Assembly: GCA_013359135.1 (NCBI GenBank)
Contig: JABWCN010000006.1
Location: 18,044-82,043, forward strand
Source: Pseudobdellovibrionaceae bacterium
GTDB taxonomy: Bacteria > Bdellovibrionota > Bdellovibrionia > Bdellovibrionales > Bdellovibrionaceae
DNA: 64,000 bases
Reading direction: 5' to 3'
Part shown: piece by piece, positions 15,224 to 41,979 of the stretch
Layout of the letters: every line of letters begins with the position of its first letter
How positions within the stretch are numbered: position 1 is the stretch's first letter
Notes under the pieces: generated by a model
What the model saw: only the letters and a program-made list of their open reading frames with translations
The model's database searches: none
What the model was told of the DNA's origin: nothing
Program-made: the position numbers and the translations under genes

Positions 15224-17002
15224 ATGAAAATAATGAAGAATCCTTCGCGATTCAGTACTATAAGTGCTTGTCTTGTAGTTCTTTTATTAGTTCTTTCACC
15301 GGCCATTGCTCAATTTCGAGAGGAAATGGCAACACTCGAGACTATGTATGAATCGCGTGCAAGAGCTGTTGTGAATACCGTGCTAAGACCTTATGAATAT
15401 TCACTAGTCGTTGCTGTTGACATTGATAAAGATGAAACAAGACTTGCTAAGCTTCAAGAAGAATTTGAAAAAGACCTATTGCCTGGAATGCCCGGTGGAA
15501 TTAACTCTGAAAATCCCGCAATTGCTAATCAACTTCATGAAATGAAAAGTAAAGTAGATATACACCTTGTCCTTGCTAATAAAATTACTAAAGAAAAAGA
15601 AGAAACTATTTCCTCTTTGCTTAAAATGAAACTTCATCTTGACGAGAAAAATGGAGACTCCTTAACGATTGTTCGCTCTGAACTACCTTCAGAAAAAGAA
15701 GAAGTTAGTGCTACTAAATTGCCTGAATTATCTTGGAAAATGTGGGGCATGATCACTGCAACTATTTTACTTTTGTTGTCAGGATTGTTTTTCTACTTAA
15801 GTCGTAAAACCAATAAGTCTGATAAAAAAGAAGATGAGAAAAAAGATAAAGAAGAAAATGTAAAACCAGATTTAGAAAAACAAAAAACTGACGCCAATGA
15901 AGCCACCGCTGAAAATAAAGACAATGACACTTTGCCTGAACTAGATCCCACAGAAATCATGTTTGAGCAAAAACAACAAATACTTTCACTAGCTTCTCAA
16001 TATCCTGAGGCAACCATTCAAGCGCTTACTGAACACTTTCAAAAAGGCCATGAACATGATGTCCTTTATCTTTGTGAAGCTTTCGGTTGGGAATTAGCTA
16101 AGAAAATTTTTGCTGGTTTTTCTCCCCGTATATGGGGTCGTATGGGACACATGTTAATTGCTGAACAAGAAAAACCTGATGTTAATAAGATGATTAAAGC
16201 TCTAGAGGTTTGTAACAAGAATATTCTTAAAAAATTCTTAGAGCTTGGTGATGTTGATTCTAAAAATCCTTTCGCTTTCATTTGGAAGTTAGGTTCCTAT
16301 GACCGCAGTAAACTTCTGGCTAATGAATCTGCTCAAAATATTGCATTAATTTGTGCGCATGGCGATAGTGAGCAAGTCGGAGAAATCATGGAATCTTTGG
16401 ATCCCATCACTCAGGAAGCTGTTACTGTGTGTATTTCTAGATTGCAAAGTTTTAATGAACAACAAACTCGAGCGGTCAACGATTCTCTAATTAAAAAACT
16501 GAAACAATTAAAAGAAAACCCTGAGGTTAAAGCTAATGGTATCGAAATCGTATCTGATCTATTAAGAGCATTACCAGCCGAAAAAGAATCTGCTTTTTTT
16601 GAAAAAATACTCCTTGAAAATCCTGTTGATGCAGAAAAAGTGAGAAGAAGAATTTTACTTTATGCAGATATAAAATATGTCCCAGCAGATATTATTTCTG
16701 AAGTTTCTGCAATGTTAGACATCAGTGTTTTAGTAAATGCCCTTAGAAAGGGAAATCCAGAAACTAAAGAATATATTCTCAAAGCTCTACCTCCAAAAAA
16801 ATCTTACATGATTCAAAGAGATCTCGAATTGGATGTCTCGATTAGCGACAGACAATCTGCTTTGTCTCAACGTGAAATTGTAAAAACGATTACAGCCCTC
16901 CTTAAGGCAAAAAATCTTGAGCTGGTTGAGCTATTAAAAGATTCCAAATATAATAAAATAGTTGGCTCTAAACCAAAAATGGAACGTCCAAAGGCGGCAT
17001 AA
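15224..17002 (+). CDS. FliF(C-terminal)-FliG fusion-like membrane protein
   Basis: 592 aa. Residues 1-30 are a signal peptide. Residues 31-152 match the C-terminal periplasmic part of FliF: a RARAVVNTVLRPYEYSLVVA segment (VGPGKVRVxVSVD region), PGMPGGINSENPA (compare GVPGALSNQPP), and LHLDEKNGDSLTIVRSELP (compare the RGDSVTVVNMPF ending). One membrane helix (174-193) and a charged linker follow. From about 242 to the end it reads as FliG: a middle domain LLANESAQNIALICAHGDS (EHPQ replaced by ESAQ), and a C-terminal domain with NPVDAEKVRRRILLYADI, VLVNALRKGNPETKEYILKA and SDRQSALSQREIVKTITALL. The charged torque helix (DDRxIQRVLREVD) is largely uncharged (PADIISEVSAMLD). FliF ring-building motifs are absent. 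The ATG at 15224 is chosen for AGGTGG upstream and the signal peptide; an ATG at 15197 is possible. Confidence 0.78.
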   Translation: MKIMKNPSRFSTISACLVVLLLVLSPAIAQFREEMATLETMYESRARAVVNTVLRPYEYSLVVAVDIDKDETRLAKLQEEFEKDLLPGMPGGINSENPAIANQLHEMKSKVDIHLVLANKITKEKEETISSLLKMKLHLDEKNGDSLTIVRSELPSEKEEVSATKLPELSWKMWGMITATILLLLSGLFFYLSRKTNKSDKKEDEKKDKEENVKPDLEKQKTDANEATAENKDNDTLPELDPTEIMFEQKQQILSLASQYPEATIQALTEHFQKGHEHDVLYLCEAFGWELAKKIFAGFSPRIWGRMGHMLIAEQEKPDVNKMIKALEVCNKNILKKFLELGDVDSKNPFAFIWKLGSYDRSKLLANESAQNIALICAHGDSEQVGEIMESLDPITQEAVTVCISRLQSFNEQQTRAVNDSLIKKLKQLKENPEVKANGIEIVSDLLRALPAEKESAFFEKILLENPVDAEKVRRRILLYADIKYVPADIISEVSAMLDISVLVNALRKGNPETKEYILKALPPKKSYMIQRDLELDVSISDRQSALSQREIVKTITALLKAKNLELVELLKDSKYNKIVGSKPKMERPKAA

Positions 17003-17005
17003 TTA

Positions 17006-20000
17006 ATGAAAATTAATTTAGACTCTTTTTTTAAAATAAAATACGGCCTCATTAAGGTTTTAATACCCATAGTGCTGTCTTTGGGCGCACTTACAAGCTG
17101 TAGTAATTCTGGATTACAAGGCACAAGTCTTTATAGCAAGTTTCAAGGAATTTCTTCTGCTGAAGCCCTAAGCCCAAGTTCTATTAGACTCACTTGGGGT
17201 CTGGATGCAAAATACACAGAATATCGTATTTACGAAAATGACGCCGTGACACCAGCTAAAAAAGAAACCTTTGGAATGACAACAGTTAGTAATCTACAAG
17301 CTGGGACAACTTATTATTATCTTATTTCAGGATATTCTGAGGCTGCTGGAGAAAATTTTGTAGGTGATAAAATTTCTGTTATGACCATGAATCACTTCAC
17401 AGGTTTAAAAAGTGATGGAATCATTTTGAAATCTAGCAACGAAGTCAAGTTGTCTTGGACTATGAATTCTGCAACAACTAAATTTAAAATTTACTATAAA
17501 AATAAAACTGGAACTTGGGACCTAAATTCTCCTGCAACAATTGTAGAAAATGATAATCAATACACATTAACTGGTTTAACAACTGGACAAGAGTATTGCT
17601 TCTATATAAAAGCTGAATATCTTGATGGAACTTCAGAACCAGCAGCTTCCTCTGAGGCTGATTTAAACTCAGCAGCTCCTTGTCAGTTGATTACAGCTCC
17701 AATGCCATCACTTCCAACAATAAGTATCAACTCAGTTACCTTTGGTGATTTTCCATGGTTTTGGACAGCTAATGGAGATACCACTTACAAAACTGAAATT
17801 TATGATTCCTCTACAAATAATCGTATTGCCAGTCGTATTGGAAATGGTTATTTCCGTTCTACAGTTAGTTTAAATCAAGGAAATAAAAACTTTTATGCTC
17901 TTGTTTCAAATGCCACAGGAAATGTGTCTCGCGTTGATTTAAATATTATTAGCAATAAAGCTGTCACCTCAACAGCAGTAAGAAAAATGAATTCCACTGG
18001 CAGTATTGGACCCATTTTTCCGCCTATTCTTTCTGATGGAAAAGGCCCTCAAAATCTTGGTACTCAAGTTGTAAGTGGTGACTTCAACTGTGATGGTCTT
18101 CCTGATATCGCGGTTTCTGCTAACGCTTCGGTCCCATTTAGCACCAAGGAGCATTATTCTGGAATAGGCTCTGTAACTGTCTATTACACTCGTCAATATA
18201 TTGAAAATGATGCTAACGGCGATCCTGTTACCAAATATGGTTTAAAAACAGACGTGGCTCCTTCTGCCACTGCAGTAGCTCCTAATCCACAACTTATATC
18301 CTATCCTATAGACACCTCTTCTGCATCGATTGGAACTAAACTCGCTGTTGGTAACTTCAATGGTGATTGCTACCAAAAAGGTTACGATGCGGCTTCACCA
18401 AATGGTTCTCCTGCAAGAGGTAACTGTGATTATATCTACACTCACTTTACCACTCCGACAGCTCAGTTGATAAGAAATACTAAAAAGTGCGATGATTTAG
18501 TTGTTAATACTAAAGCGGGGTATTTTTATGTCGTTTATGGAGACCCAGTTCTGGGATTGGTTTCAGGATCAATGTCAAATACGGCAGGTTCTGATGAACA
18601 AACTTGTGATTCGGCATCTTCTTCATGTAGAACCTCAAAATACAATGTCCCTACAGGTTATAATAGTTCTTCATTTGGCCGTGCGATTGCCGTAGGAGAT
18701 TTTAATAATGATGGTTTTGACGATATCGCCGTTTCCGCTCCATTAAATGGAACAAATATTGACGACATTTTGGTTTATCGAGGCGATAGCCTTGGGATTT
18801 ATCCTTATGGAAGCTCTTATTCTTTTAGTAATATAAGGGCTGATTCAAGTGTTGGATTAGCAGGTGCTGAAATCATTTCATCTTCTTCTAATGACTTCGG
18901 ATTTTCACTTACAGCAGTTCCCAACTCAAGACTCTGTAAAAACGGTAGTCCAGCATCTTCTGTTTACCGAACTCAATTTCTTTCTGATGGATCAAATCAA
19001 AATATTAATGGCTTAGACACCACAAAATGCGCAGACTTAATTATTGGCTCTCCGAAGAAAGCTCATGGTTCTAATACAGGTTCCATCTATAGCTGTCGCG
19101 GAAGTCAGCCAACTGTAGGAGATAAACAAAAAATCACCTCTTGGACTTGCAGAGAACACTATCCCAATTCCATAGCTAGTGAACTAATTTCTGATTTCGG
19201 TTACTCTTTAGTAGGTGTTGCTAATCAAAATGGTTATCCCGTTGGACCGAACGTCCTAGGAACTGCGCTGAGCCTTCGTCGTCCAAATGTCTGGGGAGCT
19301 CTGTTCGTTGGGGCCCCATCATCAACTATCAATACTCAAACTAATGTTGGAAGTGTTTATGGATATTATTTAACCGATAGTAATGGAAATAATGTGAGCA
19401 AAGGAATTCAAACAGTTCTGGGTTCTGCGGGAGGAGCTCACACTGTTGGAGCAGATAATGCTGTTCCTTGTGATCGCGTTAACTCAACTTGTGTTGTACA
19501 AAGAATTTATCCTTCACCGGCCCAAGTGGGTATGAAGTTTGGATTTACTTTAAGTTCTGTTGGTGAAAAAGCTGGAAGTGATGATCCATGGATGCCGATG
19601 TTAGCTGTGGGCTCTCCTTACAGAGATAACATTAATACCAGTGGACAAACTGTTACTGATGCTGGTGCTTTATATCTTTTCCGTGGAGACATCTCTACTT
19701 TTATGAACCAAATCGATAACGGTATTGAAATCACTCAACCAAAATATAACCCCACCAAGCTCACAGCTTGTAGTAATGGAGATTGTACTTGGCTTTCGGG
19801 CGGAGTGAGTCCTTTTGGTAGCACTATCGTTTATTCTAATACTGTTTCAACTAGTGCTAATCTTGGACTTGGTGGAGCTGCTGGTTTTAATTCTCTGGCT
19901 GATTACAGCTTTAATAATGACACGCAAACAGATGTTTTTGTTTCAGCCCCTAATGACAACACGGCTTCTACCGCAAATGGCAGTTTGTTTGGATTTTTCT

Positions 20001-21706
20001 CGACAGCAGGTTCTTTTAGTCCAACGGTTGTAACTCCCAGCTTGACTATTAACACAAATCAAAGCCTTGAGGGGAACTATAAATTTGAAGAGGCAAAGGT
20101 CGTTGGTGACATTAATGGTGATGGATATGATGATGTCATGACTCACATTAATAATAATAATCAATGGGTTGTTGCTATTTATTATGGAAGTGCCAATGGA
20201 TTAATTCAATCCCCAACACCATCTTACAACGCAGTTGGAACTCAACCAAAACTTTTTAAGTCTATAACTGACACTAAACTTGGCGAACAAATTTTTAGAG
20301 CCGGAGATTTGAATGGTGATGGCTATGCAGATGTCTTAATTTTGAGTTCTAATGGTCTTGGAAGCTATATTTACTATGGTTCATCAAATGGTTTAGTTAC
20401 AAATGTTGAACCAGATATCTCTCCTGTAGGTAAAAATCCCCTTCGCTTTGCTGTTAATGGAACTAACGCAGTGACTTTTGATATTAACAAAATCACCTAT
20501 GAGCAGAATGGAATGACCGCTGTTCAATCTTATAATGGCAAAGTCCAATCTGTTACAGTGGGTAAGTTTAATAACGACATTTACGACGACATCGCTATTA
20601 GAGTTCGAGATAATTATACTATTCCTGCTAGCATCCAAAGTGGTTCCTTAAATTATTCGGGAACAGGACGTGTATTTATTCTCTATGGTAGCTCTTCTGG
20701 TCCAAAAATCAACACAGCAACTGGTAGAATTCTTCTGCAGGATGGATCAGGAAACCCTGCGGATGTTGTTAGTACCAATCCTTGCGACGCTCTTGATAAC
20801 TCCAATTGTAAGATACAAATGTTGACATCACCTAACGCTAGTTCATTGAATTTTGGATTTTCACTGGCTAGAAGAAACCTTTATAGTGTCGCAACCAGTG
20901 AATATGATGGTCTTTTGGTTTCAGATCCAACTTATAATAGCAATGCTGGTATTGTTTATGTTTTTAAAGGAGACGTAAGAGGACTTAACCCAGTGCCTAT
21001 ACAAAACTTAACTCCAAGAGACACAAATACTAACTTTGGATACACAATTGTTGAAGTTGGAGATATTAATGGAGACTTAAAAAAAGATATCGCCGTGAGT
21101 GCATACAACGTACCTAGTTCTTCTACTCGTGCTCAAGTTATTACGATATTTTTTGGAAAACAAGTACAGTCTCAATCCGCCTATGGGGGCGCTAATACAG
21201 ATTCTTTATCTGATACAAGTTTCTGGACGCCAGCCATTTTAGATAATCAAATTTCTACAGACTTCAAACCACAAGTCATCAATCCAGTATCTTCTGTTTC
21301 TACAGACTACTTTGGCTATGGCATGACTGGGTTAGGAGACTTTAATCGCGATGGCTATGCTGATCTAGCTATTAACGTCTCTAATGGAGATTACAATGTT
21401 AGTGGTAATGTTTCTCAAACAGGTTATGTTCTAATCTTTTTTGGAAGTGCAGATGGTTTGCAAATTCAAGAAAGTAAAATTACTCCGACTCCTTATCCTC
21501 GATGTTATCAAGGTACATCTGCAGTTTGTGATCCATATCAAGTCTTTTTGCCACAATTTTCAGAAAATGATTTTACTCATATTAATCCTTTCTCTGTGGG
21601 CGACTTAAACGGTGATGGTCTTCCTGATTTAGTTGTTGGAGCAGCAGGAAGATCTCACCCAAGTGGAAAAGGTATTTCAACAGGAGTTATCTATGTCCTT
21701 TATTAA
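17006..21706 (+). CDS. Giant FN3/FG-GAP repeat lipoprotein, paralogue 1
   Basis: 1566 aa. Lipoprotein signal with lipobox ALTSC (Cys32). Two fibronectin-III-like domains follow (from about residue 47: SPSSIRLTWGLDAKYTEYRI, and KSSNEVKLSWTMNSATTKFK). The rest is FG-GAP/integrin-alpha-type propeller blades with Ca-binding D-x-N-x-D-G-x-x-D loops, for example GDFNCDGLPDIAVSA, GDFNNDGFDDIAVSAP, GDINGDGYDDVM, GDLNGDGYADVLILS and GDLNGDGLPDLVVGA; I count about nine or ten. This suggests a calcium-stabilised adhesive surface protein. It starts 3 bp after the FliF-FliG-like gene, so the two are co-transcribed, and it overlaps the next paralogue by 14 bp. Function in adhesion is inference. Confidence 0.85.
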   Translation: MKINLDSFFKIKYGLIKVLIPIVLSLGALTSCSNSGLQGTSLYSKFQGISSAEALSPSSIRLTWGLDAKYTEYRIYENDAVTPAKKETFGMTTVSNLQAGTTYYYLISGYSEAAGENFVGDKISVMTMNHFTGLKSDGIILKSSNEVKLSWTMNSATTKFKIYYKNKTGTWDLNSPATIVENDNQYTLTGLTTGQEYCFYIKAEYLDGTSEPAASSEADLNSAAPCQLITAPMPSLPTISINSVTFGDFPWFWTANGDTTYKTEIYDSSTNNRIASRIGNGYFRSTVSLNQGNKNFYALVSNATGNVSRVDLNIISNKAVTSTAVRKMNSTGSIGPIFPPILSDGKGPQNLGTQVVSGDFNCDGLPDIAVSANASVPFSTKEHYSGIGSVTVYYTRQYIENDANGDPVTKYGLKTDVAPSATAVAPNPQLISYPIDTSSASIGTKLAVGNFNGDCYQKGYDAASPNGSPARGNCDYIYTHFTTPTAQLIRNTKKCDDLVVNTKAGYFYVVYGDPVLGLVSGSMSNTAGSDEQTCDSASSSCRTSKYNVPTGYNSSSFGRAIAVGDFNNDGFDDIAVSAPLNGTNIDDILVYRGDSLGIYPYGSSYSFSNIRADSSVGLAGAEIISSSSNDFGFSLTAVPNSRLCKNGSPASSVYRTQFLSDGSNQNINGLDTTKCADLIIGSPKKAHGSNTGSIYSCRGSQPTVGDKQKITSWTCREHYPNSIASELISDFGYSLVGVANQNGYPVGPNVLGTALSLRRPNVWGALFVGAPSSTINTQTNVGSVYGYYLTDSNGNNVSKGIQTVLGSAGGAHTVGADNAVPCDRVNSTCVVQRIYPSPAQVGMKFGFTLSSVGEKAGSDDPWMPMLAVGSPYRDNINTSGQTVTDAGALYLFRGDISTFMNQIDNGIEITQPKYNPTKLTACSNGDCTWLSGGVSPFGSTIVYSNTVSTSANLGLGGAAGFNSLADYSFNNDTQTDVFVSAPNDNTASTANGSLFGFFSTAGSFSPTVVTPSLTINTNQSLEGNYKFEEAKVVGDINGDGYDDVMTHINNNNQWVVAIYYGSANGLIQSPTPSYNAVGTQPKLFKSITDTKLGEQIFRAGDLNGDGYADVLILSSNGLGSYIYYGSSNGLVTNVEPDISPVGKNPLRFAVNGTNAVTFDINKITYEQNGMTAVQSYNGKVQSVTVGKFNNDIYDDIAIRVRDNYTIPASIQSGSLNYSGTGRVFILYGSSSGPKINTATGRILLQDGSGNPADVVSTNPCDALDNSNCKIQMLTSPNASSLNFGFSLARRNLYSVATSEYDGLLVSDPTYNSNAGIVYVFKGDVRGLNPVPIQNLTPRDTNTNFGYTIVEVGDINGDLKKDIAVSAYNVPSSSTRAQVITIFFGKQVQSQSAYGGANTDSLSDTSFWTPAILDNQISTDFKPQVINPVSSVSTDYFGYGMTGLGDFNRDGYADLAINVSNGDYNVSGNVSQTGYVLIFFGSADGLQIQESKITPTPYPRCYQGTSAVCDPYQVFLPQFSENDFTHINPFSVGDLNGDGLPDLVVGAAGRSHPSGKGISTGVIYVLY

Positions 21707-24700
21707 AACTCACGTTGGCAGCACATTAGCTTTTGTTGGATTGTTTTTACTTACTCTAACATCTTGTTCAGATGGAGGATTGCAAACAGGTTCTTCCACC
21801 GCCACATTTAGTGGAGTTACAACAGCTACCGTTCTTTCACCAACAAGTATTAAACTCAGCTGGGTGAAAAACTCTTCTGCTAAAGAATATCAAATTTATA
21901 TTAACTCAAGTACTTCTCCCGTCGGAAGTACAGCTCTTGATTATTATGTCGTTGAAAATCTAACTCCAGAAACTTCTTATTCATTCAAAGTTATTGGAAC
22001 ATCTGACTCAAATATTTTTGGCGCAGATAAGGAAATGCAAGCGACTACTTGGCCCAGGTTCACTGGTGTGACTTCAGCAAGTGCAGACAATCAAGGAAAT
22101 ATTTTACTTAGTTGGAACTTTCCTTACTCAGCTCAAAAATATTTAATTTTTTATAAAAAAAATTCTGCACCTGATGCAACATCTACTAACAACTGGGAAA
22201 CTGCCAACGTAGAATCAACAACCAACAGCGCTTCTATTAGTGGTCTTGATACCGCCAGTAAATACTATTTTATGGTTCATGCTGTATATAAAGAAGGTGA
22301 AAAAGAAATCACAACGAAATCAATTTCAGTCACAACACAAACAAGTTTTGCTGCCCCAACGTATACAATTTCAGAAGTTTCAATTGGAAATGTTCCAACG
22401 GTAACAGTAGACCCAACAGAAGATACTACGCATGGAGAAAACTTTTTTAAAACTACTGTCCTGTGGAATGGAGTTGCCGTTTCAGATCCTCTTATTGGAA
22501 AAGGCCAAGTTGTTCTTTCTGCGAATGCCAACCTCCCCTTGGGAAAAGTTGAGAATTTAGCTCTAAAAGTTGAATACTCTGATGGAAACAGATCTGAAAG
22601 TATGACAATTGAGGGACTAACAACCTATATTAAAGGTATCCCTACAAACATCGAAACGCCTGCCACTAGCTCCCTTGCTCAAGGCTCAAGCTATATGGGA
22701 AAAGTTTTAGCAAAAGGTGATTTTAATTGTGATGGTTTAGATGATTTAGCTATTGGAATGCCAGATGTATCTGTGGCCGATTTAGGCGTAAAATCAAATT
22801 TAGCTGGAGCTGTTATCGTTTACTACTCTAAGGAAACATCGCCAGGAGTGTTACAATTAAACACAACTGGAACACCTTCTGTTAATCCCGCGTCGGGGGA
22901 TCCTCAAATTATTACTTTTGATGATTTAACTCAGCGTGAACAATTTGGCTATTCTTTAGCTTCGGGAAACTTAAATGGTGATAAAAATGGTCAGTTCAGT
23001 TGTGATGATCTTATCGTAGGAGCGCCTTATTCACTTTCAAATTATGTGGGTGTGAGTGGTAGCTTCCAAGCACAAAATGGTGCTGCTTATGTCTTCTTTG
23101 GAAGTACAAAAGGTTTGTCTACAGCATCACATATTTCCGATATTGCTTCAAATACTTCAACTTGTGATGGAAGCTTAAATAATGCAATTTGTTCACCAGT
23201 AAAACTTTTTGAAAATCCAATGACCATTCCAACAAGTCTAACTGGTGGCCAACAGCTAAATAAAAGTTTCTCTGGAAATGGCAACTGGGAAAGATTTGGC
23301 TACTCTATTACTTTCATCGGTGATTTCAATGCTGATGGATATGATGATATCGCTATAGGTGCTCCTTACGCTCACTATGATGGGCGACTATCAAATTTGC
23401 CCACTACTTCTAAATTAATTGAAAATGCAGGAGCAGTTTATATTTACTTTGGTTCGAAGTTTGGTCTTGGATATGAATACCCAGCTGCCACTTCTACACC
23501 AACAGTATTAGATGCTGCTGTTAGGTATTTGAAAATTTACGCTCCAATTCCTCAAGCTAATGCTTTATTTGGTGCTGCTGTGGCTGGTGGTGGAGATATT
23601 GACGGTCGATATAAAATTAGAGCTAACGGTGGAGCTAATTTTTACGGTGGTGGTGATCTTGTTGTTGGTTCTCCTGGATTTAAATACTCGGACTATATTA
23701 ATACAAACTTACTTGCAACATCTCCTTACACCGTAGGTACGGACAAAGATTCTAATAGTATCTTGAGTTCGCCTTCGGGGAATTGGTGGGATGTTGGAGG
23801 AGTTTCTTTATCAGCTGGAACTAACTACTATGGATTCCCACAATCAACTAGCTCTGTGGGTGCAGCTTACATCTATTTTGGAAGAAGTGCCTCTTCTGCT
23901 CCTTCATCTGATGAAACTCCAAGCCGTTCTGCATTTTGGAAATGCGGTAGAAGAGGAATGTCAGTTAATGAACATTATTCCTGCTTGTTTGATAATTCAA
24001 ATGTCAAAATGTTAACTCCAAGAAAATCAAGTGTAGCTACCAATATCACTGGTTTTGGCTCAGCAGTTGCAGTTCTTGGGTCAAAATCTCGTTTTAAAGA
24101 AAACTCTGGAACAGACATATTAACTGTTGCTCCAACACCTGGTAATCCAAAACAGTATTTTGCTGACTCAAATGAAGATGGTTTTGCTGATGTGGTTGTT
24201 TCAGCGCCAAGCACTACTGTCAGTGGTAAAACTGGAGTCGGTATTTTGCAGGTTTACTATGGAAACTCTTCTCGGCTGTTTAACCCAAGCGATCTTTACA
24301 ACCTCTTTTCAGATACTAATCCATTAAGTGACTCTGGAAGTAATTCAGTTACCTGTTCTGATTTTACCACTATCAACTCTACATCTAAGCAACTATGTAA
24401 ACCTGTGATCATAAGCTCAACATCCCTTTCTTCAGGTGCTACTATTGGAAGCTCTCAATCACAATTTGCTGTTGGAGATGTAACAGGAGATGGTTTATTA
24501 GATCTTGCTGTTGGTGCTCCTGGAGAAAATGTCATCGGTACTGGTTCGGGAGCTGCCCTTGTCTTTGCAAGTGTTAAAAATGGTGGTCTGAGTCCAACTT
24601 ATAGAAAAATTTATACAACATTTGCAGATACTTCTGATGCTTTTGGAACTTCTGTTATTATTGGAAATTTTAATGGTGACAAGAGTAATGATCAATTAGC

Positions 24701-26981
24701 TAAAGGAAATAACACTCCACCTTTTGTTGATTTTCCTTATGGAGATCTTTTTGCTGGTGCACCTAATGATGAAATCTCACGTCCAGGTGGTGGAGCCGTT
24801 TATGGATTTTACACACAAGACACAGCTTTACCTTCTACACTAAGTACTCATACGCAATTGATCACAGAATCTTTAGCTTCATTTACTGAGTATGGACTTG
24901 GAGAAACAAAACTTGTTGGCGATATCAATAATGATGGTTATGTTGATGCTGTTTCTAAAGTAACTAGTTTTGGCCAAAAAGGCGAAAAAACCTACGATGC
25001 GGTTATATACTATGGAAGCTCGATTGGGCTGATAACCACTTCTTTTTGTCTGGCAAATCAAACTAAGATTTTCAAATCTGGAAGCCATACAGCCGACTGC
25101 TATCCTTCAAGATCTCCAACTCAAGGAATTACAAATCTTGATATCGCTTTACCTCAAAAAATTGAGCGCCCATCAAATTTAGATCCCTTATGGAGTTTTA
25201 TTGGAATAGATGCGGGTGACGTTAATCACGATGGTTTTGCTGATGTTTTATTTATTCCAGCTCCAGGAGCCACCACTAAATATTCTTCTTTATATTTTGG
25301 ATCAAGAACTGGATTGCTTAGCGTAGTTGATCCATCATGGATTCCTGCAGCTGGAGATCCTCAAATTGTAAGTGCCATCCTAACTGCACAAACTGCAAAT
25401 GGACAAGATACTTATGGAAACTCATCTACAAATAACAGATCACCCTTCGTAGCCGCAGATTTCAATGGTGACGGTTATTCCGACTTAGCTTTTGGCTTAC
25501 CCTATATTAGCAGTCGAAGAATGAATATGACTGCTGGTGACACGCCTGACCCAGCTGGCCTTATTGGTGGTCCATCAAAAGCGCTAGGAACTGGATGGGA
25601 ATGTTCTGGTTCTGTGACTTACTCATCATGCACAAATGGAGATGCGGTTCCTTGGGCTGGTTCGATCAGAATTCTTTATGGGTCTTCTTCTGGATACCAA
25701 ACTCCAAAGAAAAATGGTTCCACTGGAGATATTAATCGTGGTGAACCTTACCCTCTAAATATGGAAGGAACTGAAGAAGCTGCTGAGGCAAGCAAGCCTT
25801 GTGAATCAAGTGCTAATAATTCTGATCCAATTTGTAAACCAACCTATATGGATAATCCTGTTTTTGAAAACATCAGTTTTGGATATGATAAATTAGGACA
25901 TAATTTTGGAGCCAGCATCACCACTGCAGATGTAAATCACGACGGCTATCTTGACTTGTTGGTGGCAGCTCCTGGTTTTGAAGATCTTAGCTGTTATTCA
26001 GGAACAACTTATAGTAATTATGGCCGAGTCTATGTATTCTACGGCAGTCAATACGGCTTGCTCGCCACAACCGCAAGGAAGTACTACACTGCTGACTTGA
26101 CAGCCCCTTGTCCAGGAACTTTTGCAACAGACAAAGCTCTGCAAAATACCAACGGAGGCAAAGTGCGAGCTATAATGCCAACGTTAGTGGATTATGGTTT
26201 TGCAAATAACAAAACTGAAAGAAATTTTGGATTTTCTCTAATGTCTGCAGGAGATGTCAATGGTGATGGTTTTGATGACTTTATTATTGCTACTCCAAAT
26301 GACTCCTTTACGACCCTAACTAAAGCTGGATCTGCCTACATCTATTATGGGCCACTTTGTCCTGCTGATAACTATGATCAAATTACTGATGAGTTTCAAA
26401 ATGCTGATAATTTAAATATTCAAAAATTTTTTAAAGGGCAATTGCCAGTTGGTGCTTCGACAACTCAAGAATCAAATATCACGATAGCCGACACTACAAT
26501 AACTAATTCTTGCTTTAGAGGAGCTTCTACTAAAATGAAGCCAATGCCTCAAAAATTTTACGTTTACGGCGCTATAAGTAATGAACAGTGGGGTCTTTCG
26601 ATTATTGCCGGTAAACCTAAAAAAGGTGATTTTAACAGGGATGGATATGATGACATAATCATAGGAACGCCTTACTATAATGATGTCGTCAGAAATCTTG
26701 TGGACATAGGTCAAGGAGTTGTATTTTTTGGAAGTCCTCTTGGGTTATACACCAACGATTATCCAGCAACTTCAGTGGTACTTACAAACTCAAATCAAAT
26801 ACGACCTTATTCCATAGTACCGACTAATTATCCATCCAACTCGAAGTTTTTTATCAAAATGAGTACCAGTGGTGATATAAATGGCGATGGAACTATGGAT
26901 ATTTTAGTTCCATCTATACACTATAATGGCCAAACTCCCTTTAAAGGAGTCAGTTTAGGAACGTTTTTTATATTTAATTAA
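21693..26981 (+). CDS. Giant FN3/FG-GAP repeat lipoprotein, paralogue 2
   Basis: 1762 aa. The start is the ATG at 21693, set by CAGGAG six bases upstream; it lies inside the end of paralogue 1. Lipobox TLTSC (Cys25) is followed by DGGLQTGSS, very like NSGLQGTS in the first copy, then FN3-like domains (LSPTSIKLSWVKNSSAKEYQ) and about 14 FG-GAP blades (GDFNCDGLDDLAIGMP, GDFNADGYDDIAIGAP, GDVTGDGLLDLAVGAP, ADVNHDGYLDLLVAAP, GDFNRDGYDDIIIGTP and others), enough for two seven-bladed propellers. Tandem duplication from a common ancestor followed by strong divergence is likely. Confidence 0.87.
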   Translation: MSFIKTHVGSTLAFVGLFLLTLTSCSDGGLQTGSSTATFSGVTTATVLSPTSIKLSWVKNSSAKEYQIYINSSTSPVGSTALDYYVVENLTPETSYSFKVIGTSDSNIFGADKEMQATTWPRFTGVTSASADNQGNILLSWNFPYSAQKYLIFYKKNSAPDATSTNNWETANVESTTNSASISGLDTASKYYFMVHAVYKEGEKEITTKSISVTTQTSFAAPTYTISEVSIGNVPTVTVDPTEDTTHGENFFKTTVLWNGVAVSDPLIGKGQVVLSANANLPLGKVENLALKVEYSDGNRSESMTIEGLTTYIKGIPTNIETPATSSLAQGSSYMGKVLAKGDFNCDGLDDLAIGMPDVSVADLGVKSNLAGAVIVYYSKETSPGVLQLNTTGTPSVNPASGDPQIITFDDLTQREQFGYSLASGNLNGDKNGQFSCDDLIVGAPYSLSNYVGVSGSFQAQNGAAYVFFGSTKGLSTASHISDIASNTSTCDGSLNNAICSPVKLFENPMTIPTSLTGGQQLNKSFSGNGNWERFGYSITFIGDFNADGYDDIAIGAPYAHYDGRLSNLPTTSKLIENAGAVYIYFGSKFGLGYEYPAATSTPTVLDAAVRYLKIYAPIPQANALFGAAVAGGGDIDGRYKIRANGGANFYGGGDLVVGSPGFKYSDYINTNLLATSPYTVGTDKDSNSILSSPSGNWWDVGGVSLSAGTNYYGFPQSTSSVGAAYIYFGRSASSAPSSDETPSRSAFWKCGRRGMSVNEHYSCLFDNSNVKMLTPRKSSVATNITGFGSAVAVLGSKSRFKENSGTDILTVAPTPGNPKQYFADSNEDGFADVVVSAPSTTVSGKTGVGILQVYYGNSSRLFNPSDLYNLFSDTNPLSDSGSNSVTCSDFTTINSTSKQLCKPVIISSTSLSSGATIGSSQSQFAVGDVTGDGLLDLAVGAPGENVIGTGSGAALVFASVKNGGLSPTYRKIYTTFADTSDAFGTSVIIGNFNGDKSNDQLAKGNNTPPFVDFPYGDLFAGAPNDEISRPGGGAVYGFYTQDTALPSTLSTHTQLITESLASFTEYGLGETKLVGDINNDGYVDAVSKVTSFGQKGEKTYDAVIYYGSSIGLITTSFCLANQTKIFKSGSHTADCYPSRSPTQGITNLDIALPQKIERPSNLDPLWSFIGIDAGDVNHDGFADVLFIPAPGATTKYSSLYFGSRTGLLSVVDPSWIPAAGDPQIVSAILTAQTANGQDTYGNSSTNNRSPFVAADFNGDGYSDLAFGLPYISSRRMNMTAGDTPDPAGLIGGPSKALGTGWECSGSVTYSSCTNGDAVPWAGSIRILYGSSSGYQTPKKNGSTGDINRGEPYPLNMEGTEEAAEASKPCESSANNSDPICKPTYMDNPVFENISFGYDKLGHNFGASITTADVNHDGYLDLLVAAPGFEDLSCYSGTTYSNYGRVYVFYGSQYGLLATTARKYYTADLTAPCPGTFATDKALQNTNGGKVRAIMPTLVDYGFANNKTERNFGFSLMSAGDVNGDGFDDFIIATPNDSFTTLTKAGSAYIYYGPLCPADNYDQITDEFQNADNLNIQKFFKGQLPVGASTTQESNITIADTTITNSCFRGASTKMKPMPQKFYVYGAISNEQWGLSIIAGKPKKGDFNRDGYDDIIIGTPYYNDVVRNLVDIGQGVVFFGSPLGLYTNDYPATSVVLTNSNQIRPYSIVPTNYPSNSKFFIKMSTSGDINGDGTMDILVPSIHYNGQTPFKGVSLGTFFIFN

Positions 26982-33399: not shown

Positions 33400-33960
33400 A
33401 TGACGTGGATTTTATTTATTATACCAATGATTGTGCTTTACACTCTAACCGCATTCTTAAATAAGTGGCCTGTGCAGAGCCTCTGGGTTTTGTTAGTTAT
33501 GCTTGCGGGACCAATTTGGATGTTTATATCTGAAAGCTTTCCTGGCTTTTTTAAGAACCTTCGATCTAAAACAAATTTTATTTTTTATCTGCAAAAATCT
33601 TCAAAAAAAAAGGATTTAGAAATTGCTAAATTAAAAAATAAAATTGTGGAATTAAATGAAGAACTTGACGGAATTCATAAAATTTGGACTCAATCTAACA
33701 ACGAAACAACATTTAAAAAATCGACGAAAAATCAACAAACTAACGAACACTTCGAAGATTCACAAACTCAAGTTTCTAATAAGCTGCTAGAAATTGTTTA
33801 CAGCCCAATAAAATCAAGATCTGATTCTATGAAAAATGATTTTGTTTTAAAAAACGAAGACATTCTTGAAATTGACACCTATGAATTCTTAAGTGATCTT
33901 CCTAAAGAATATCACTTGCACTCAAAAGAAGAAAAGAAACCAGAAGAACCTTCTCTTTGA
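33400..33960 (+). CDS. Membrane protein with cytoplasmic coiled coil, unknown
   Basis: 186 aa. Two hydrophobic helices (residues 2-20 and 27-45) are followed by a positively charged segment, a predicted coiled coil (KKKDLEIAKLKNKIVELNEELDGI, about 68-93) and an acidic, disordered tail ending KKPEEPSL. The arrangement suits an inner-membrane anchor with a cytoplasmic rod. It is 43 bp after the giant lipoprotein gene and closes the plus-strand run. Its last 49 bp overlap the 3' end of the convergent gene. No family recognised. Confidence 0.65.
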   Translation: MTWILFIIPMIVLYTLTAFLNKWPVQSLWVLLVMLAGPIWMFISESFPGFFKNLRSKTNFIFYLQKSSKKKDLEIAKLKNKIVELNEELDGIHKIWTQSNNETTFKKSTKNQQTNEHFEDSQTQVSNKLLEIVYSPIKSRSDSMKNDFVLKNEDILEIDTYEFLSDLPKEYHLHSKEEKKPEEPSL

Positions 33961-35090
33961 AGAAAAACATATCCTTGTTTTGGAGAGTAAAAATTAAGAT
34001 CTAATTGAATAAATTTTTTCTTAAAAAAATTACGATAAAGCGGTATCTTTCTAATGGCACTATTTTTTAAGTCAAACATTTCAATCTTATCTTTTGATAA
34101 AAACCCACCTGTTGTATAAATCAAAATACTATCCATAGAGCTTAGCGCTTTAATTTGGACTATGTTTTCGTGAGCTAAATTTTCAAAAAAGCTAGAGCTT
34201 ACTTTATCAAGTATAACTTCACTTTGATCGACGACATTAGTAATAAAGATATTTTTTAAGTCTGTATATAAAAAGGCTTCATTTTTTTCATCTTTCATTG
34301 TTAAAAATACAGAGCTTTTAGTTTTTATTCTTGGAATAAAATCTTGGCCATAGGAATATATCCATCCAGGTTTATTCGTCTTAAAAACAAACAACTGATT
34401 TTTAGAACTTTCTATGTTGTAGACATCTACTTGGTTAGCAAGCTCGTGTTCACAGCTTGAGACTAGCAAAGATCCTTGATCTACAATAGTGTATATCTTT
34501 TCTGCATCAACAATACCTGAACTCATTGTTGCGCCGGAGAATTTATTAGCATCATAAAATCCAAGAATATTTCTTTGATAATCATATACAAATAAATGAT
34601 TACCAAAGCTGAATACTTTAATGTTTTTTATCTGACTGAGTTCTTTTCTACAGAGCGCAAGAGGTGCCCCCATCCTTAGTTCTTTTTGACTATTCCAAGT
34701 AAATGGGAATAACTTTTCATTATTAGCTTGCAGCAAACCTACTGGTGGTGAAAAAAACTTTACATTGATATTTTCTTTTTGAGATAAACAGTTATAGTTT
34801 GGTTTTTCACAAGCTAATTTAATGTGAGATATATTGCTAGGTAAAAATTTTTCTGAGTTTATTGCCCAACTGTAAAGTCCCAGTTGAAAGTCTTTGGTAT
34901 TATATTGAATAAAATATTTTGAGTCACTCCAAAGAGTCTTCTTATTTTCATCAAAAACTGTATTGACTTTCCTTTCACATGCGACCACTTCTTTATCTGC
35001 TTCTTGCTCGCTAAGAATCATTGCGGCTAAGAAAATAATTACACTCACACCAGCAAACAATAAGATAATTGCTACATTCCTTTTGGACAT
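33912..35090 (-). CDS. Bitopic membrane protein with large extracytoplasmic domain, unknown
   Basis: 392 aa. One N-terminal membrane helix (about 5-27, AIILLFAGVSVIIFLAAMIL) and a roughly 360-residue exported domain rich in short beta segments with recurring patterns such as NHLFVYDYQRNILGFYDA and GSLLVSSCEHELANQVDVYN. This is suggestive of a beta-propeller, but I cannot name it. The ATG overlaps the stop of the upstream gene by one base (TAATG), so it is coupled to it. It is the last gene of a likely motA-motB-two-gene unit. Confidence 0.65.
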   Translation of the reverse strand: MSKRNVAIILLFAGVSVIIFLAAMILSEQEADKEVVACERKVNTVFDENKKTLWSDSKYFIQYNTKDFQLGLYSWAINSEKFLPSNISHIKLACEKPNYNCLSQKENINVKFFSPPVGLLQANNEKLFPFTWNSQKELRMGAPLALCRKELSQIKNIKVFSFGNHLFVYDYQRNILGFYDANKFSGATMSSGIVDAEKIYTIVDQGSLLVSSCEHELANQVDVYNIESSKNQLFVFKTNKPGWIYSYGQDFIPRIKTKSSVFLTMKDEKNEAFLYTDLKNIFITNVVDQSEVILDKVSSSFFENLAHENIVQIKALSSMDSILIYTTGGFLSKDKIEMFDLKNSAIRKIPLYRNFFKKKFIQLDLNFYSPKQGYVFLQREGSSGFFSSFECK

Positions 35091-35848
35091 TACTTTCGAC
35101 CTTTAAGCCCTGATAATTGGGATTTTACATACTGCTGTTGACTCACTTCAAGAATCTTAGAGTTTTTTTTCACATAATCAATGAGTCTTATTTTTGCATT
35201 AGTATCTTTGGTCTTTTGTAAATAATAAAAATAATCAGAGATCAAATCACTTCTTTTAGGTTTTACATAGGACTTTAGCGTTTTTTCTGTTTCACCCATC
35301 ATAGGAACCCACTCAATCGAGGTATCAAGCCACAAAGATTTTTCATAAAGTTTTAGATTACCATAAGTTTCACGAACTACTTTTTTTTGCTTCACATCTA
35401 ACTCCAGCTTGCCAATAATTTTTGACAATAAAATTTTTCCTCGGGGTGACAAATCTTTATTCTGGTTAAGCTGCTCCAACAGTGGAGCCAGCAAAAAACC
35501 TCCCTTTTTACTATCAATTAATTTAGAGTCTAGACAAAATATCACCTGGGAGAGATAGCCTTCTAGTTCATTGGCTTTTAACTGAATATTCTTTAATTTG
35601 CTCTCAACTAATGGAATATTATTACTTTTTATTGCCTCTACGATTTCGCCAGAGGGGATATTAATATTGGCTTTATTAAGACCTTGGTCTTCAGCGACTA
35701 AAGGATTTAAATTACGACTTTCATTATTTTTTGAGATTACAGAGTTTTTCTCAACATTTTGGTTTTTCTGAGTTACTTGAAAATACCATATCCCGATAGC
35801 TAGTGTTAAAATAGCGACAATTTCAAAAATAATTTTTTTCTTTTTCAT
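35090..35848 (-). CDS. Bitopic membrane protein downstream of motB, unknown
   Basis: 252 aa. A Lys-rich start (MKKKKIIFE) and one membrane helix (about 7-23) are followed by a polar linker and a mostly helical periplasmic domain with repeated Leu/Lys heptad-like spacing (VESKLKNIQLKANELEGYLS). It lies 44 bp after motB in the same direction and overlaps the next gene by one base. The position suggests a periplasmic partner of the stator; I recognise no family. Confidence 0.65.
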   Translation of the reverse strand: MKKKKIIFEIVAILTLAIGIWYFQVTQKNQNVEKNSVISKNNESRNLNPLVAEDQGLNKANINIPSGEIVEAIKSNNIPLVESKLKNIQLKANELEGYLSQVIFCLDSKLIDSKKGGFLLAPLLEQLNQNKDLSPRGKILLSKIIGKLELDVKQKKVVRETYGNLKLYEKSLWLDTSIEWVPMMGETEKTLKSYVKPKRSDLISDYFYYLQKTKDTNAKIRLIDYVKKNSKILEVSQQQYVKSQLSGLKGRK

Positions 35849-35892: not shown

Positions 35893-36924
35893 CTATTTTT
35901 TCTCTACTTGTCCACTATCAATTTTTTTTAATTCTTTGGTTTGGCTTTCAACGCTTTGTACTTTTCTTTCAAGTTCTTCAGTTTTCTTAACAATTTTATC
36001 CATTTCTTTTACTGATTTTTCTAATTCTTTTGCTGCCTTCAATTTTTCATTCATTTCTTTATATCTTTGTTGTGCCTCTTCAATTTTTTTCTTAACTTCG
36101 GCTAGCTTATCATTACTTTTTTTAATTTCTTCTTTTGCTTCTTGGCTTTCTGGTGTTTCAGAACTAACTGTACGAAATCCTATTTTGTTCATCTCTTCCA
36201 AAGAAAGATTTCCGTCTGGTTTGAGTCTGATATTAATTACAACTCTTCTGTTTTTAACTTTATTTTCTTGGATTGAATTACCGCTTGGATCTAAATGTGG
36301 AGCATTTGGTCTAGAGGAGCCATATCCAACAGCAGTAAACCATTTATCATCCATTCTATTTTCGATAAATCTTCTTACGATACGTGATGACCTAGCCGTT
36401 GAAAGCTCCCAATTAGAAGGGAAATAAGCTGATTGTATCGCATCTATATCGGTATGACCTTCAACTTCAATTTGTTCAACAGGCAACTTTTTGACTTCTG
36501 TGGCCACTTTGTCAATAACTTTTGCCGATAAAGGCGTTAGCTCTGCAGAGCCAGGGTTAAAAAGAATCTGACTTTCAAAATTCATCTGAATATAATTATC
36601 TTTGATCTTAATTTTAACTTGATCTTTAAACCCACCTTCGCCCATCATTTTAGATATTTCTGCATCAAGAACTTTTTTTAAATTTGAAGCTCCTGGGTTT
36701 TCTTTCAAAGTTCCTCCAAAATACTTCACCAAATCTTTTCTTACGACTTCAAATTTATCTTCATCAACTTTTGAAAAAGCATACATCAACACAAAAAAAC
36801 CAAATAGCAGGGTCATCATATCAGCATAGGAAACCAGCCAATTTGACTCATCATGTGCCATATTAGAAGAACTGTGTTCTTCATGGTTATTATTACGTCT
36901 TGAAGCGCTTCTTCTAGGCTGCAC
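35893..36924 (-). CDS. motB: Flagellar-type motor protein MotB with C-terminal coiled-coil tail
   Basis: 343 aa from a GTG at 36924, chosen because GGAGGAG lies six bases upstream; a GTG 13 codons earlier has no such site. The single membrane helix has the proton/sodium-binding Asp35 in SNWLVSYADMMTLLFGFFVL. The OmpA-like peptidoglycan-binding domain follows (FNPGSAELTPLSAKVIDKVA, VEGHTDIDAIQ, NWELSTARSSRIV, NRRVVINIRL). Unusually, about 105 further residues of charged coiled coil (EEIKKSNDKLAEVKKKIEEA...) extend beyond the OmpA domain, where ordinary MotB ends. The start overlaps the motA stop by 11 bp. Confidence 0.93.
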   Translation of the reverse strand: MQPRRSASRRNNNHEEHSSSNMAHDESNWLVSYADMMTLLFGFFVLMYAFSKVDEDKFEVVRKDLVKYFGGTLKENPGASNLKKVLDAEISKMMGEGGFKDQVKIKIKDNYIQMNFESQILFNPGSAELTPLSAKVIDKVATEVKKLPVEQIEVEGHTDIDAIQSAYFPSNWELSTARSSRIVRRFIENRMDDKWFTAVGYGSSRPNAPHLDPSGNSIQENKVKNRRVVINIRLKPDGNLSLEEMNKIGFRTVSSETPESQEAKEEIKKSNDKLAEVKKKIEEAQQRYKEMNEKLKAAKELEKSVKEMDKIVKKTEELERKVQSVESQTKELKKIDSGQVEKK

Positions 36925-37723
36925 GCTTAGCTCCTCCAGATTCTGTTGAGTTTGTCGATCCACGTAAACTTGGTGCTAAAAACGATTTTAGGTATTCTTC
37001 AATATAAGTAGGATGCTTTTTTTCCACTATCATTAAGACACCGTCTTTAATGATCTGCCTCATAACTTTATCCGAGGTTGATAGTGCTGCTAATTTTTCA
37101 CTGATTGGAATTAAAATTAAATTTGCCACAACTAGACCATAGAATGTTGCAATCAATGCCGTTGCCATAGCTGGACCTATCCTAGACTGAGCTCCGGGTT
37201 CACCTAGCGTTTGAAGTAATGAAATCATACCAAGCGTAGCACCCAAAAGACCAAAGGCTGGTGGGAATCTAGAAATCGTATGCCACACCTTTAGTTCGTC
37301 TTCATCTCGCTTTGTTTTTCCTTTAATTGCATTAGAAAGAATGTCATCTAACTCGTCTACATTGAATCCATAGTTACAAACCATCTGAACTGCGTCCCGA
37401 AGAAATGGATGTGCTTTTGGAGGAAGTAATGCTTCTAAACCTTTTGGATTTGTCCTATATGTCTCAGAAAGTTTAACAACAAGACTGATAACACTTAAAT
37501 AATCATCGCTCTCATTGCTTAAGATTTTCCTGACGAGAATTTTAAAAGCACTCGCCAAACGTTTAAAGGTAAAGCTGAGTAAGGCGACAGTGATAGTTCC
37601 ACCCAAAACAATAACAATCCCGTGAACATCAGCAAAAATTTTAGGGTTTTTTGTGGAATCAAGTATAGCGAAAGCAGCTATACTGAATGCGGCTATAATA
37701 CCTAAAATACCAGCAAAATTCAT
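36914..37723 (-). CDS. motA: Flagellar-type motor stator protein MotA
   Basis: 269 aa from the ATG at 37723, which has GGAG six bases upstream; an ATG four codons earlier lacks a site. Four membrane helices are visible, with the MotA/PomA signature in the second pair: RFPPAFGLLGATLGMISLLQ and MATALIATFYGLVVANLILI, including the prolines needed for ion-driven change. The cytoplasmic loop is charged (KTKRDEDELKVWHTISR). It forms the ion channel with MotB. It is the first gene of the minus-strand stator unit, and divergent genes start only about 70 bp away. Confidence 0.94.
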   Translation of the reverse strand: MNFAGILGIIAAFSIAAFAILDSTKNPKIFADVHGIVIVLGGTITVALLSFTFKRLASAFKILVRKILSNESDDYLSVISLVVKLSETYRTNPKGLEALLPPKAHPFLRDAVQMVCNYGFNVDELDDILSNAIKGKTKRDEDELKVWHTISRFPPAFGLLGATLGMISLLQTLGEPGAQSRIGPAMATALIATFYGLVVANLILIPISEKLAALSTSDKVMRQIIKDGVLMIVEKKHPTYIEEYLKSFLAPSLRGSTNSTESGGAKRAA

Positions 37724-37792
37724 TTGATTCTCCATTCAAATTTTTAAATTTATCAATTGACCTTTCGGCATTCTATTAAAACAATAAACTAG

Positions 37793-39021: not shown

Positions 39022-40386
39022 ATGAAAAGTTTTTTTATTTTTTTATTTTTTTCTCAGCTATTAACTGCAAATCCTATTATCTCTATAGACGAAAGTGAGC
39101 TTGTAAAAGATTCTGATATTTTATTAAAAGCAGAGGCAAATCAAAAAGCTCAAAGAATCGAGGAAGATCTTACAAAGGCAACAACTCCTATGAAAATTGA
39201 GGTAGTTGTTGATAGTAGCGGTTCTATGGGACAAATTCTTGCGAAGAATAAAACCAAAATGTATTATTTAAAAGAACTGATGAAAGAATTTTTTAAGGCA
39301 AGATGGAAAGAAAAAAATACTATCGGGTTACGAGTTTATAGTGGAATCACTAAAGATAAATGTACTGATATCAGAATGACCGTTCCTTTTGGTCAGACAA
39401 ATATAGATAAGATGGATAAAGCAGTTCAAAGCCTTAGTCCTCTAGGAATGACACCTCTGCATGAAAGTTTAAAATATGCTTTTGAAGATTTAAAGACATT
39501 TTCAGGTCCTAAAAGAGTTGTTGTTGTGACTGATGGACAAGATACCTGTGGCGGAGACCCTTGTAAAACAGTAGAAGAGTGGAAAAAGCAGAATCTTGAT
39601 CTTAAGTTTTATGTGATTGCTTTGGGCTTCAAGGGCGACTCTGAATCATTTAAAAAAATTCAATGTATTGGAGATACTCATGTAGCCAACGATGACCAAA
39701 GCTTTAACGATGCCATGTCTCAGATTGGAAGTAAGCTTAGTAACAAAACAAATCTTGAAGTCGTTAGTCCAAATCCAGGAGCTAGTGTTTATTTGTACAA
39801 AATTGAAGGAAAAGAAAAAAAGTTATTCAAAGTTTTTTATGCTTATTCTCAGCAAACCGTTCCCCCTGGTGAATATGAAGCTGTTATTAATTTACAACCC
39901 GCTTACAAATTTTCACAATTTACAATTCCACCAAATAAAAAAATCACACTTAAGGCAATTGGTGATGGGCAGTTTATTGTTAACTATTTTAATCACCTTG
40001 TTAATGTCGAGGTATTAGATAAAAACAACAGAGTTGTTAGTCGTTTTAAGAGTGATAAGCCAGAACTTATCCCAACAGGAAAATGGCAAATAAGAATATT
40101 TAAAGATCCATTTTACGAGTATCTTTTACCCAACTACTACATTTACCCCATGGGGAAGCATGAGTTTAATGTTTCCGGTGTAGGAGCCGTAAAAATTAAT
40201 TCTGAAAACATTGAAGGGATTTATGTATATGATGAAAGTAAAAAAGATATTGGAAACTACTTATCAAATACCACGGCGATTTTAAAAGATGGAGTTTATA
40301 CTTTTCACGTCAATGACAAATGCTCTTTTCCTGATATTCAAATTAAAGACAAAAAGGAAATCATTGTTTTGACATGCCCAAAATGA
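39022..40386 (+). CDS. Secreted von Willebrand factor A domain protein
   Basis: 454 aa. Signal peptide (residues 1-16). The VWA domain spans about 56-235 with a complete metal-ion-dependent adhesion site: DSSGSMG (64-70), the Thr in LSPLGMTPLHESL and VVVVTDGQDTCGG. Such domains bind protein ligands through a bound Mg ion. The C-terminal half is beta-rich and unassigned (PNPGASVYLYKIEG, HLVNVEVLDKNNRVVSRFKS), resembling PEGA-like or carboxypeptidase-regulatory repeats. It is 14 bp after the barrel-like gene with AAAGG before the ATG. It may bridge the barrel and the stator or bind surface ligands (inference). Confidence 0.85.
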   Translation: MKSFFIFLFFSQLLTANPIISIDESELVKDSDILLKAEANQKAQRIEEDLTKATTPMKIEVVVDSSGSMGQILAKNKTKMYYLKELMKEFFKARWKEKNTIGLRVYSGITKDKCTDIRMTVPFGQTNIDKMDKAVQSLSPLGMTPLHESLKYAFEDLKTFSGPKRVVVVTDGQDTCGGDPCKTVEEWKKQNLDLKFYVIALGFKGDSESFKKIQCIGDTHVANDDQSFNDAMSQIGSKLSNKTNLEVVSPNPGASVYLYKIEGKEKKLFKVFYAYSQQTVPPGEYEAVINLQPAYKFSQFTIPPNKKITLKAIGDGQFIVNYFNHLVNVEVLDKNNRVVSRFKSDKPELIPTGKWQIRIFKDPFYEYLLPNYYIYPMGKHEFNVSGVGAVKINSENIEGIYVYDESKKDIGNYLSNTTAILKDGVYTFHVNDKCSFPDIQIKDKKEIIVLTCPK

Positions 40387-41966: not shown

Positions 41967-41979
41967 AATTATCAATAGT

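Follow-up and report, generated by a model that had tools for sequence, protein, structure and literature searches.

FliG and the S-ring of FliF are regarded as flagellar parts. The gliding motor of Bdellovibrio is named as a major open challenge in a 2026 review (PMC13104615). Homologues of the Myxococcus agl/glt genes, of which Bdellovibrio genomes have several copies each, are the standing candidates (PMC3169522), and aglQ and a VWA gene go up on surfaces (PMC9140294). In B. bacteriovorus, each of the three motAB pairs has been assigned to the flagellum (Morehouse 2011); Bd3021/Bd3020 figure as flagellar MotA2/MotB2, and their expression is strongly altered in fliL mutants (PMC11323537). 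In 2012 FliG was counted as two copies in B. bacteriovorus HD100 and Tiberius and listed as flagellar (PMC3539863).

The window, a stretch of 64,000 nucleotides from a Pseudobdellovibrionaceae genome, contains a gene for a natural FliF-FliG fusion, which we call FliFG. We take FliFG to be FliG joined to a part predicted to fold as the S-ring domain of FliF, and probably (at roughly 55%) the rotor of a non-flagellar motor driven by MotAB. A search limited to open-access literature gave no description of a non-flagellar FliF-FliG fusion with MotAB; the fusion, with its own stator and lipoprotein locus, is apparently undescribed in that literature.

FliFG and its neighbourhood

As shown in Table 1, FliFG is followed on the same strand by giant lipoproteins, and MotA and MotB are encoded further downstream. 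AGGTGG stands ahead of the ATG at 15224. The conserved neighbours extend over 15.2–42.6 kb of the window. No flagellar gene, including FliM/FliN, rod, hook and export genes, was seen in this neighbourhood, and the earlier note was right to place the fusion outside a flagellar operon. The ordinary FliG of the same genome lies on contig C80, adjoining an ordinary FliF. For the 2117-aa lipoprotein-like protein, neither Pfam nor the PDB sequences gave a match at E 0.01.

Table 1. FliFG, its parts and its neighbours, in window coordinates.
Feature	Position	Strand	Basis or remark
FliFG, natural FliF(RBM3-TM)-FliG fusion, 592 aa	15224..17002	+	Pfam, PDB search, homologues, model
Signal peptide, residues 1-29	15224..15310	+	sequence and hydropathy; cleavage site by eye
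FliF RBM3-like periplasmic domain, model residues 24-155	15293..15688	+	predicted structure
Single membrane helix and extension, residues 171-203	15734..15832	+	model and hydropathy
Helix pair like FliF cytoplasmic tail (binds FliG_N), residues 242-273	15947..16042	+	helices in model
FliG N-M-C region, residues 274-567	16043..16924	+	Pfam, PDB sequence matches, fold match
S46 family peptidase, just upstream of FliFG	12818-14872	-	736 bits
FG-GAP/fn3 lipoprotein, 1566 aa, lipobox LTSC	17006..21706	+	starts 3 bases past FliFG stop
Second FG-GAP/fn3 lipoprotein, up to 1782 aa, lipobox LTSC	21633..26981	+	true start probably within listed ORF
Giant lipoprotein-like protein, 2117 aa	27003..33356	+	cluster c8, 13/16 loci
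186-aa protein with membrane segments	33400..33960	+	only 2/16 loci
392-aa protein	33912..35090	-	2/16 loci
252-aa protein	35090..35848	-	2/16 loci
MotB	35893..36963	-	MotB_plug 66.2 bits, OmpA 54.3 bits
MotA	36914..37735	-	MotA_ExbB 81.1 bits
Exported barrel-like protein, 404 aa	37793..39007	+	cluster c7, 13/16 loci; barrel by eye, without Pfam support
Exported VWA-domain protein	39022..40386	+	cluster c6, 13/16 loci
Lipoprotein, TPR and PEGA-like N-terminal part	40483..41337	+	TPR over cut-off; PEGA 16.0 bits, below 20.8 cut-off
Small barrel-like protein	41349..41975	-	OMP_b-brl 20.3 bits, under cut-off
Second small barrel-like protein	41980..42609	+	

The 31 other homologues of FliFG (P0002-P0032), 32-71% identical to it across 92-98% of its length, rule out a chance or mis-called ORF. 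A stray FliG paralogue was likewise rejected, because the periplasmic and membrane part is conserved together with the FliG part.

Domain structure

From sequence alone, the earlier note had described a signal peptide, a FliF-type C-terminal periplasmic domain ending in GDSLTIV, one membrane helix and a FliG-like middle and C-terminal region, with the ring-building domains of FliF missing. Most of this stands. The signal peptide ends in SPAIA/Q, GDSLTIV occupies residues 144-150, and beyond the signal peptide there is one hydrophobic helix, at about residues 172-194. FliG_C (42.8 bits) and FliG_M (38.7 bits) both scored above their Pfam cut-offs. FliG_N reached 22.9 bits, below its 25-bit cut-off and positioned on the middle region; the fold match of the model, over residues 274-567, takes in the N part too, besides the middle and C-terminal parts named in the earlier note. 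In a PDB sequence search (E up to 10), 10 of the 11 matches were FliG, two of them weak (E 0.6-0.8), and one was unrelated.

For the FliF part, YscJ_FliF_C gave no Pfam match in FliFG at E up to 10, and one Fibrobacterota relative (P0149) exceeded the cut-off (27.0 bits vs 23.8). When the periplasmic part was compared with FliF by hhalign, the probability was 8% for type 1, the family of FliFG (E 0.004, with three unrelated profiles at E 0.27-0.55), and 3% for a second family, type 2. Two independent models, one of type 1 and one of type 2, both show an RBM3 (S-ring domain) fold and keep the whole length of FliG; they are monomers built from 25-27 sequences, with pTM of 0.33 and 0.40 and, for type 2, a mean pLDDT of 70. 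RBM1, RBM2 and the beta-collar are absent from FliFG: there are no residues between the signal peptide and RBM3, and the insert of RBM3 is too short for the collar. The claim that ring-building domains are missing therefore holds for RBM1 and RBM2 but not for the periplasmic domain, which has the predicted RBM3 fold. Structure prediction found both the FliF-C and the FliG fold. Residues 242-273 look, by eye from the sequence, like the tail of FliF, with a weak register in hhalign.

Further families and FliG-like proteins

A search with P0033 gave 93 proteins including the query (P0033, P0069-P0160), several of them named from Fibrobacterota, which form a third FliF-FliG fusion family; its profile matched type 1 with a probability of 99.8 over 528 columns. 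The fusion occurs in at least three sequence families, namely types 1 and 2 of Bdellovibrionota and the Fibrobacterota family, the last from protein sequences.

The genome of the window also has a second, divergent module (L004:14029-19657 on G000 contig 22, and L003). It comprises VWA, an exported protein, a PEGA/TPR lipoprotein, a FliFG-like protein of 631 aa, a small exported protein and MotA, of which the start is present before the contig ends. Divergent FliFG-like ORFs of 576-585 aa were seen in G008 (two loci) and G090, at L151:7517-9274 (-), L152:7025-8755 (-) and L153:15577-17307 (-). They adjoin a PEGA lipoprotein, with MotA-MotB close by. Their matches to the fusion profiles were marginal or none (E 4e-4, none, 4e-5), the two G008 ORFs had FliG_C over cut-off (34.5 and 26.4 bits), and all were left out of the family counts.

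Short FliG_C proteins over cut-off, separate from both ordinary FliG and the fusion, are encoded at G000:C90:49049-49363 (frame of 268 aa, 46.2 bits) and G004:C1:828438-828740 (307 aa, 30.1 bits). HD100-like G004 has three FliG_C proteins over cut-off, and one of the two FliG copies counted in HD100 may be FliFG; the accessible part of that listing (PMC3539863) does not describe the fusion, the stator or the lipoprotein locus.

Torque and FliM-binding residues

The positions of the FliG torque residues K264, R281, D288, D289 and R297 were compared across 32 type-1 fusions, 15 ordinary FliGs from the class and the Fibrobacterota-family proteins longer than 550 aa (88 of 93). The position of R281 is basic in all 32 type-1 fusions and all 88 Fibrobacterota-family proteins. 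That of D289 is acidic in 32/32 and 0/88, respectively, the Fibrobacterota family having lost both D288 and D289. In type 1, D288 is replaced by R or K in 30/32, reversing the charge, the K264 position is basic in 19/32, and R297 is lost. A torque helix largely without charge, as the earlier note had it, is ruled out: 11 of its 28 residues are charged in FliFG (0.39), equal to the mean of the 15 ordinary FliGs (0.39), and the type-1 mean is 0.33.

The FliM-binding EHPQ was found in 14 of the 15 ordinary FliGs (one gap). FliFG itself reads ESAQ, as had been noted, and across the type-1 fusions E is present in 32/32, H in 1/32, P in 9/32 and Q in 2/32. Since the glutamate is kept and the rest lost, FliM binding by FliFG is probably gone. 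In E. coli, MotA R90 pairs with FliG D288-D289 and MotA E98 with R281 (PMC12505986). By eye, the arginine aligned with R90 is mostly retained in the MotAs of the locus and the E98 position is not conserved. Judged from these residues, the stator contact of FliFG would be partly kept.

Such changes bear on an alternative in which FliFG does not rotate. It would be a scaffold derived from FliG; MotAB would turn beside it, and FliFG would link the stator to proteins of the envelope, transmitting force or holding parts in position, much as Agl or GldLM motors act on their partners with no FliG ring. A scaffold would fit the alteration of half of the known charge contacts, the loss of the FliM-binding motif and the absence of RBM1, RBM2 and the beta-collar. 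However, RBM3 and the whole FliG length are kept in two divergent families, and the R281/D289 positions are still charged in every type-1 fusion. We consider a scaffold unlikely, while taking it more seriously than the other alternatives.

Conservation of the locus and its stator

Neighbourhoods were counted over 16 loci, from 15 genomes of the class plus L010; fragmentary G078 was left out. A single-protein FliFG search of the genome contigs gave no match, and an alignment-based search gave six loci, of which only L010 was counted separately. By BLAST clustering, the PEGA/TPR lipoprotein and small barrel-like proteins were near FliFG in 16/16 loci, MotB in 15/16, MotA in 14/16, the exported protein of 400 aa, the VWA protein and the giant lipoprotein in 13/16 each, and FG-GAP proteins in 12/16, some of these cut by a stretch end; several misses fall at contig or stretch ends. 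The earlier note had raised the question whether relatives sit beside the giant lipoproteins or motAB, and they mostly do. A membrane protein of about 585 aa (cluster c10; e.g. L044:1672-3423, +) adjoins FliFG in 9/16 loci; by eye it resembles a sensor-type protein whose C-terminal part is phosphatase-like, and it may be a regulator.

Type-1 FliFG was found in 16 of the 143 genomes of the class, full length in 15 and in fragments in one. Type-1 MotA was found in the same 16 genomes, at 414 bits or more in 15, with the next match at 280.5 bits; in the remaining one (G020) it is cut at the contig end and scored 208 bits for 117 residues. The PEGA lipoprotein was again in the same 16, at 421.7 bits or more (next match 54.5 bits). 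The MotA and PEGA profiles were built from FliFG loci, and it is therefore their absence from the remaining 127 genomes that is informative. The distribution is patchy (3 of 6 genomes of the window's genus, 9 of 24 in g4), with related genomes not being independent. Of the 33 genomes with the type-2 fusion, 24 have a MotA close to it on one contig.

The stator of the locus has MotA_ExbB, a MotB plug with its aspartate and an OmpA-like wall-binding domain; the aspartate and the wall-binding motif are present in all 14 type-1 MotBs and in 12/12 further MotBs. In a tree of 39 sequences, the deeper nodes of which are weak, the locus MotAs of types 1 and 2 form one clade, split with a support of 0.982 from MotA1, MotA3 and ExbB/TolQ-like proteins. 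The locus MotA groups with MotA, apart from six ExbB/TolQ-like proteins of the same genomes. The middle motA of G004 is presumably Bd3021. G120 has a further MotA-like protein outside its FliFG locus (G120:C15:60320-61072).

Genomes without detected flagellar genes

FlhA was found in 122 of the 143 genomes of the class and in 15 of the 16 with type-1 FliFG. In each of two genomes, G120 (97% complete) and G122 (99%), a single stretch encodes type-2 FliFG, MotAB, a PEGA lipoprotein and three giant proteins. Neither had a match to FlhA, FliP, FliM/FliN_C or YscJ_FliF_C, and the same searches were positive in flagellate comparison genomes. FliG_C gave nothing over cut-off in either; the best match (E 0.017), in G122, was the fusion itself. 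The absence of ordinary FliG rests on this FliG_C search, the fusion profile being unsafe for the purpose (it missed G006 and G029, which have FliG). Type 2 can therefore exist without a flagellum. For type 1, with FlhA in 15 of its 16 genomes, the same independence may be supposed only by analogy with type 2.

This also bears on an accessory or alternative rotor of the ordinary flagellum, in which MotAB2 and FliFG would at times take part in the flagellar motor, as when the cell is inside prey. MotAB2 was reported to contribute to flagellar motility of HD100 (Morehouse 2011), and its change of expression in fliL mutants (PMC11323537) speaks for a flagellar link, as does FlhA in nearly all type-1 genomes. 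Against it stand the related systems of G120 and G122, partners that are constantly outer-membrane proteins and lipoproteins, and a locus in which flagellar genes were not seen. FliL-Bd1076 showed no two-hybrid interaction with MotA2 or MotB2, in an assay in which MotA2-MotB2 interaction was likewise not seen (PMC11323537). We judge a flagellar role of this kind improbable. Least probable of all is a motor that places or exports the giant lipoproteins at the surface, with a division of labour like that of T9SS and no role in cell movement: giant lipoproteins directly follow FliFG on its strand, the first after 3 bases, and barrel-like proteins are constant partners, but no translocon-like giant barrel was recognised, and the short contigs of G142 and G115 showed no giant protein (at least 1000 aa) beside the core genes.

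A possible rotary motor

A related gene set in two genomes in which no flagellar genes were found makes FliFG a likely rotor of a non-flagellar rotary motor. Together with the predicted folds and a dedicated MotAB of the same distribution, it supports the core of what the earlier note suggested, a possible stand-alone rotor; the account there needed correction on the ring domains, the torque helix and the parts of FliG that are covered. From the observed gene content, co-occurrence and residue conservation, and from the predicted folds, we infer a ring, its rotation and an output. Each FliFG subunit would be held in the inner membrane by a single helix, RBM3 would join the subunits into a ring, and FliG would face the cytoplasm. 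Stator units of the dedicated MotA and MotB, anchored through MotB to the cell wall, would push against the torque helix of FliG_C. Since the FliM-binding motif is changed and the locus has no rod, hook or export gene, such a motor would have neither the known chemotaxis switch nor a filament. The RBM3 ring in the periplasm would pass its motion on to the PEGA/TPR lipoprotein, the outer-membrane proteins and the giant FG-GAP lipoproteins, and the output would most likely be movement of surface adhesins, in gliding or prey contact.

More tentatively, we suggest a new class of rotary machine, with at least three families, in which MotAB of the flagellar type, without a flagellum, turns a FliF-FliG ring made of a single protein, and the ring drives outer-membrane and giant surface lipoproteins; such a machine may supply the missing motor and adhesins for surface movement or prey contact of Bdellovibrio. 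If true, a stand-alone MotAB-FliFG would show the rotor-stator core living and evolving apart from export, rod and filament, and would bear on flagellar origins. The locus is a concrete motor candidate that can be deleted in a laboratory strain. It also raises the possibility that, of the three 'flagellar' MotAB pairs in HD100, one works outside the flagellum.

Comparison with known systems

Like T9SS/GldLM of Bacteroidota, the proposed motor would be a non-flagellar, ion-driven rotation that moves surface adhesins, but no FliF/FliG-type rotor is mentioned for T9SS/GldLM in the accessible part of the review (PMC13104615). Agl-Glt of Myxococcus and its Bdellovibrio homologues also have an ion-driven stator, and its partners span the envelope and include outer-membrane proteins. 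The accessible text on them mentions no FliG or FliF part (PMC3169522), and the MotA of the locus does not group with ExbB/TolQ-like proteins, the kind to which the AglQRS channel belongs. In a laboratory fusion from Vibrio, FliF is likewise joined to FliG and can still form the S-ring; unlike FliFG, that fusion is engineered, has full-length FliF and is flagellar (PMC11481574). With the flagellar rotor of FliF MS-ring, C-ring FliG and MotAB, FliFG has in common the predicted RBM3 and FliG N-M-C folds, one C-terminal membrane helix, a basic residue at R281 and an acidic one at D289; the stators share MotA and a MotB that has the plug, the aspartate and a domain for binding the wall. The difference is that FliFG is one fused protein, without RBM1, RBM2, beta-collar and EHPQR, and in place of FliM/FliN, rod and export genes the locus has giant lipoproteins, VWA, PEGA/TPR and barrel-like proteins.
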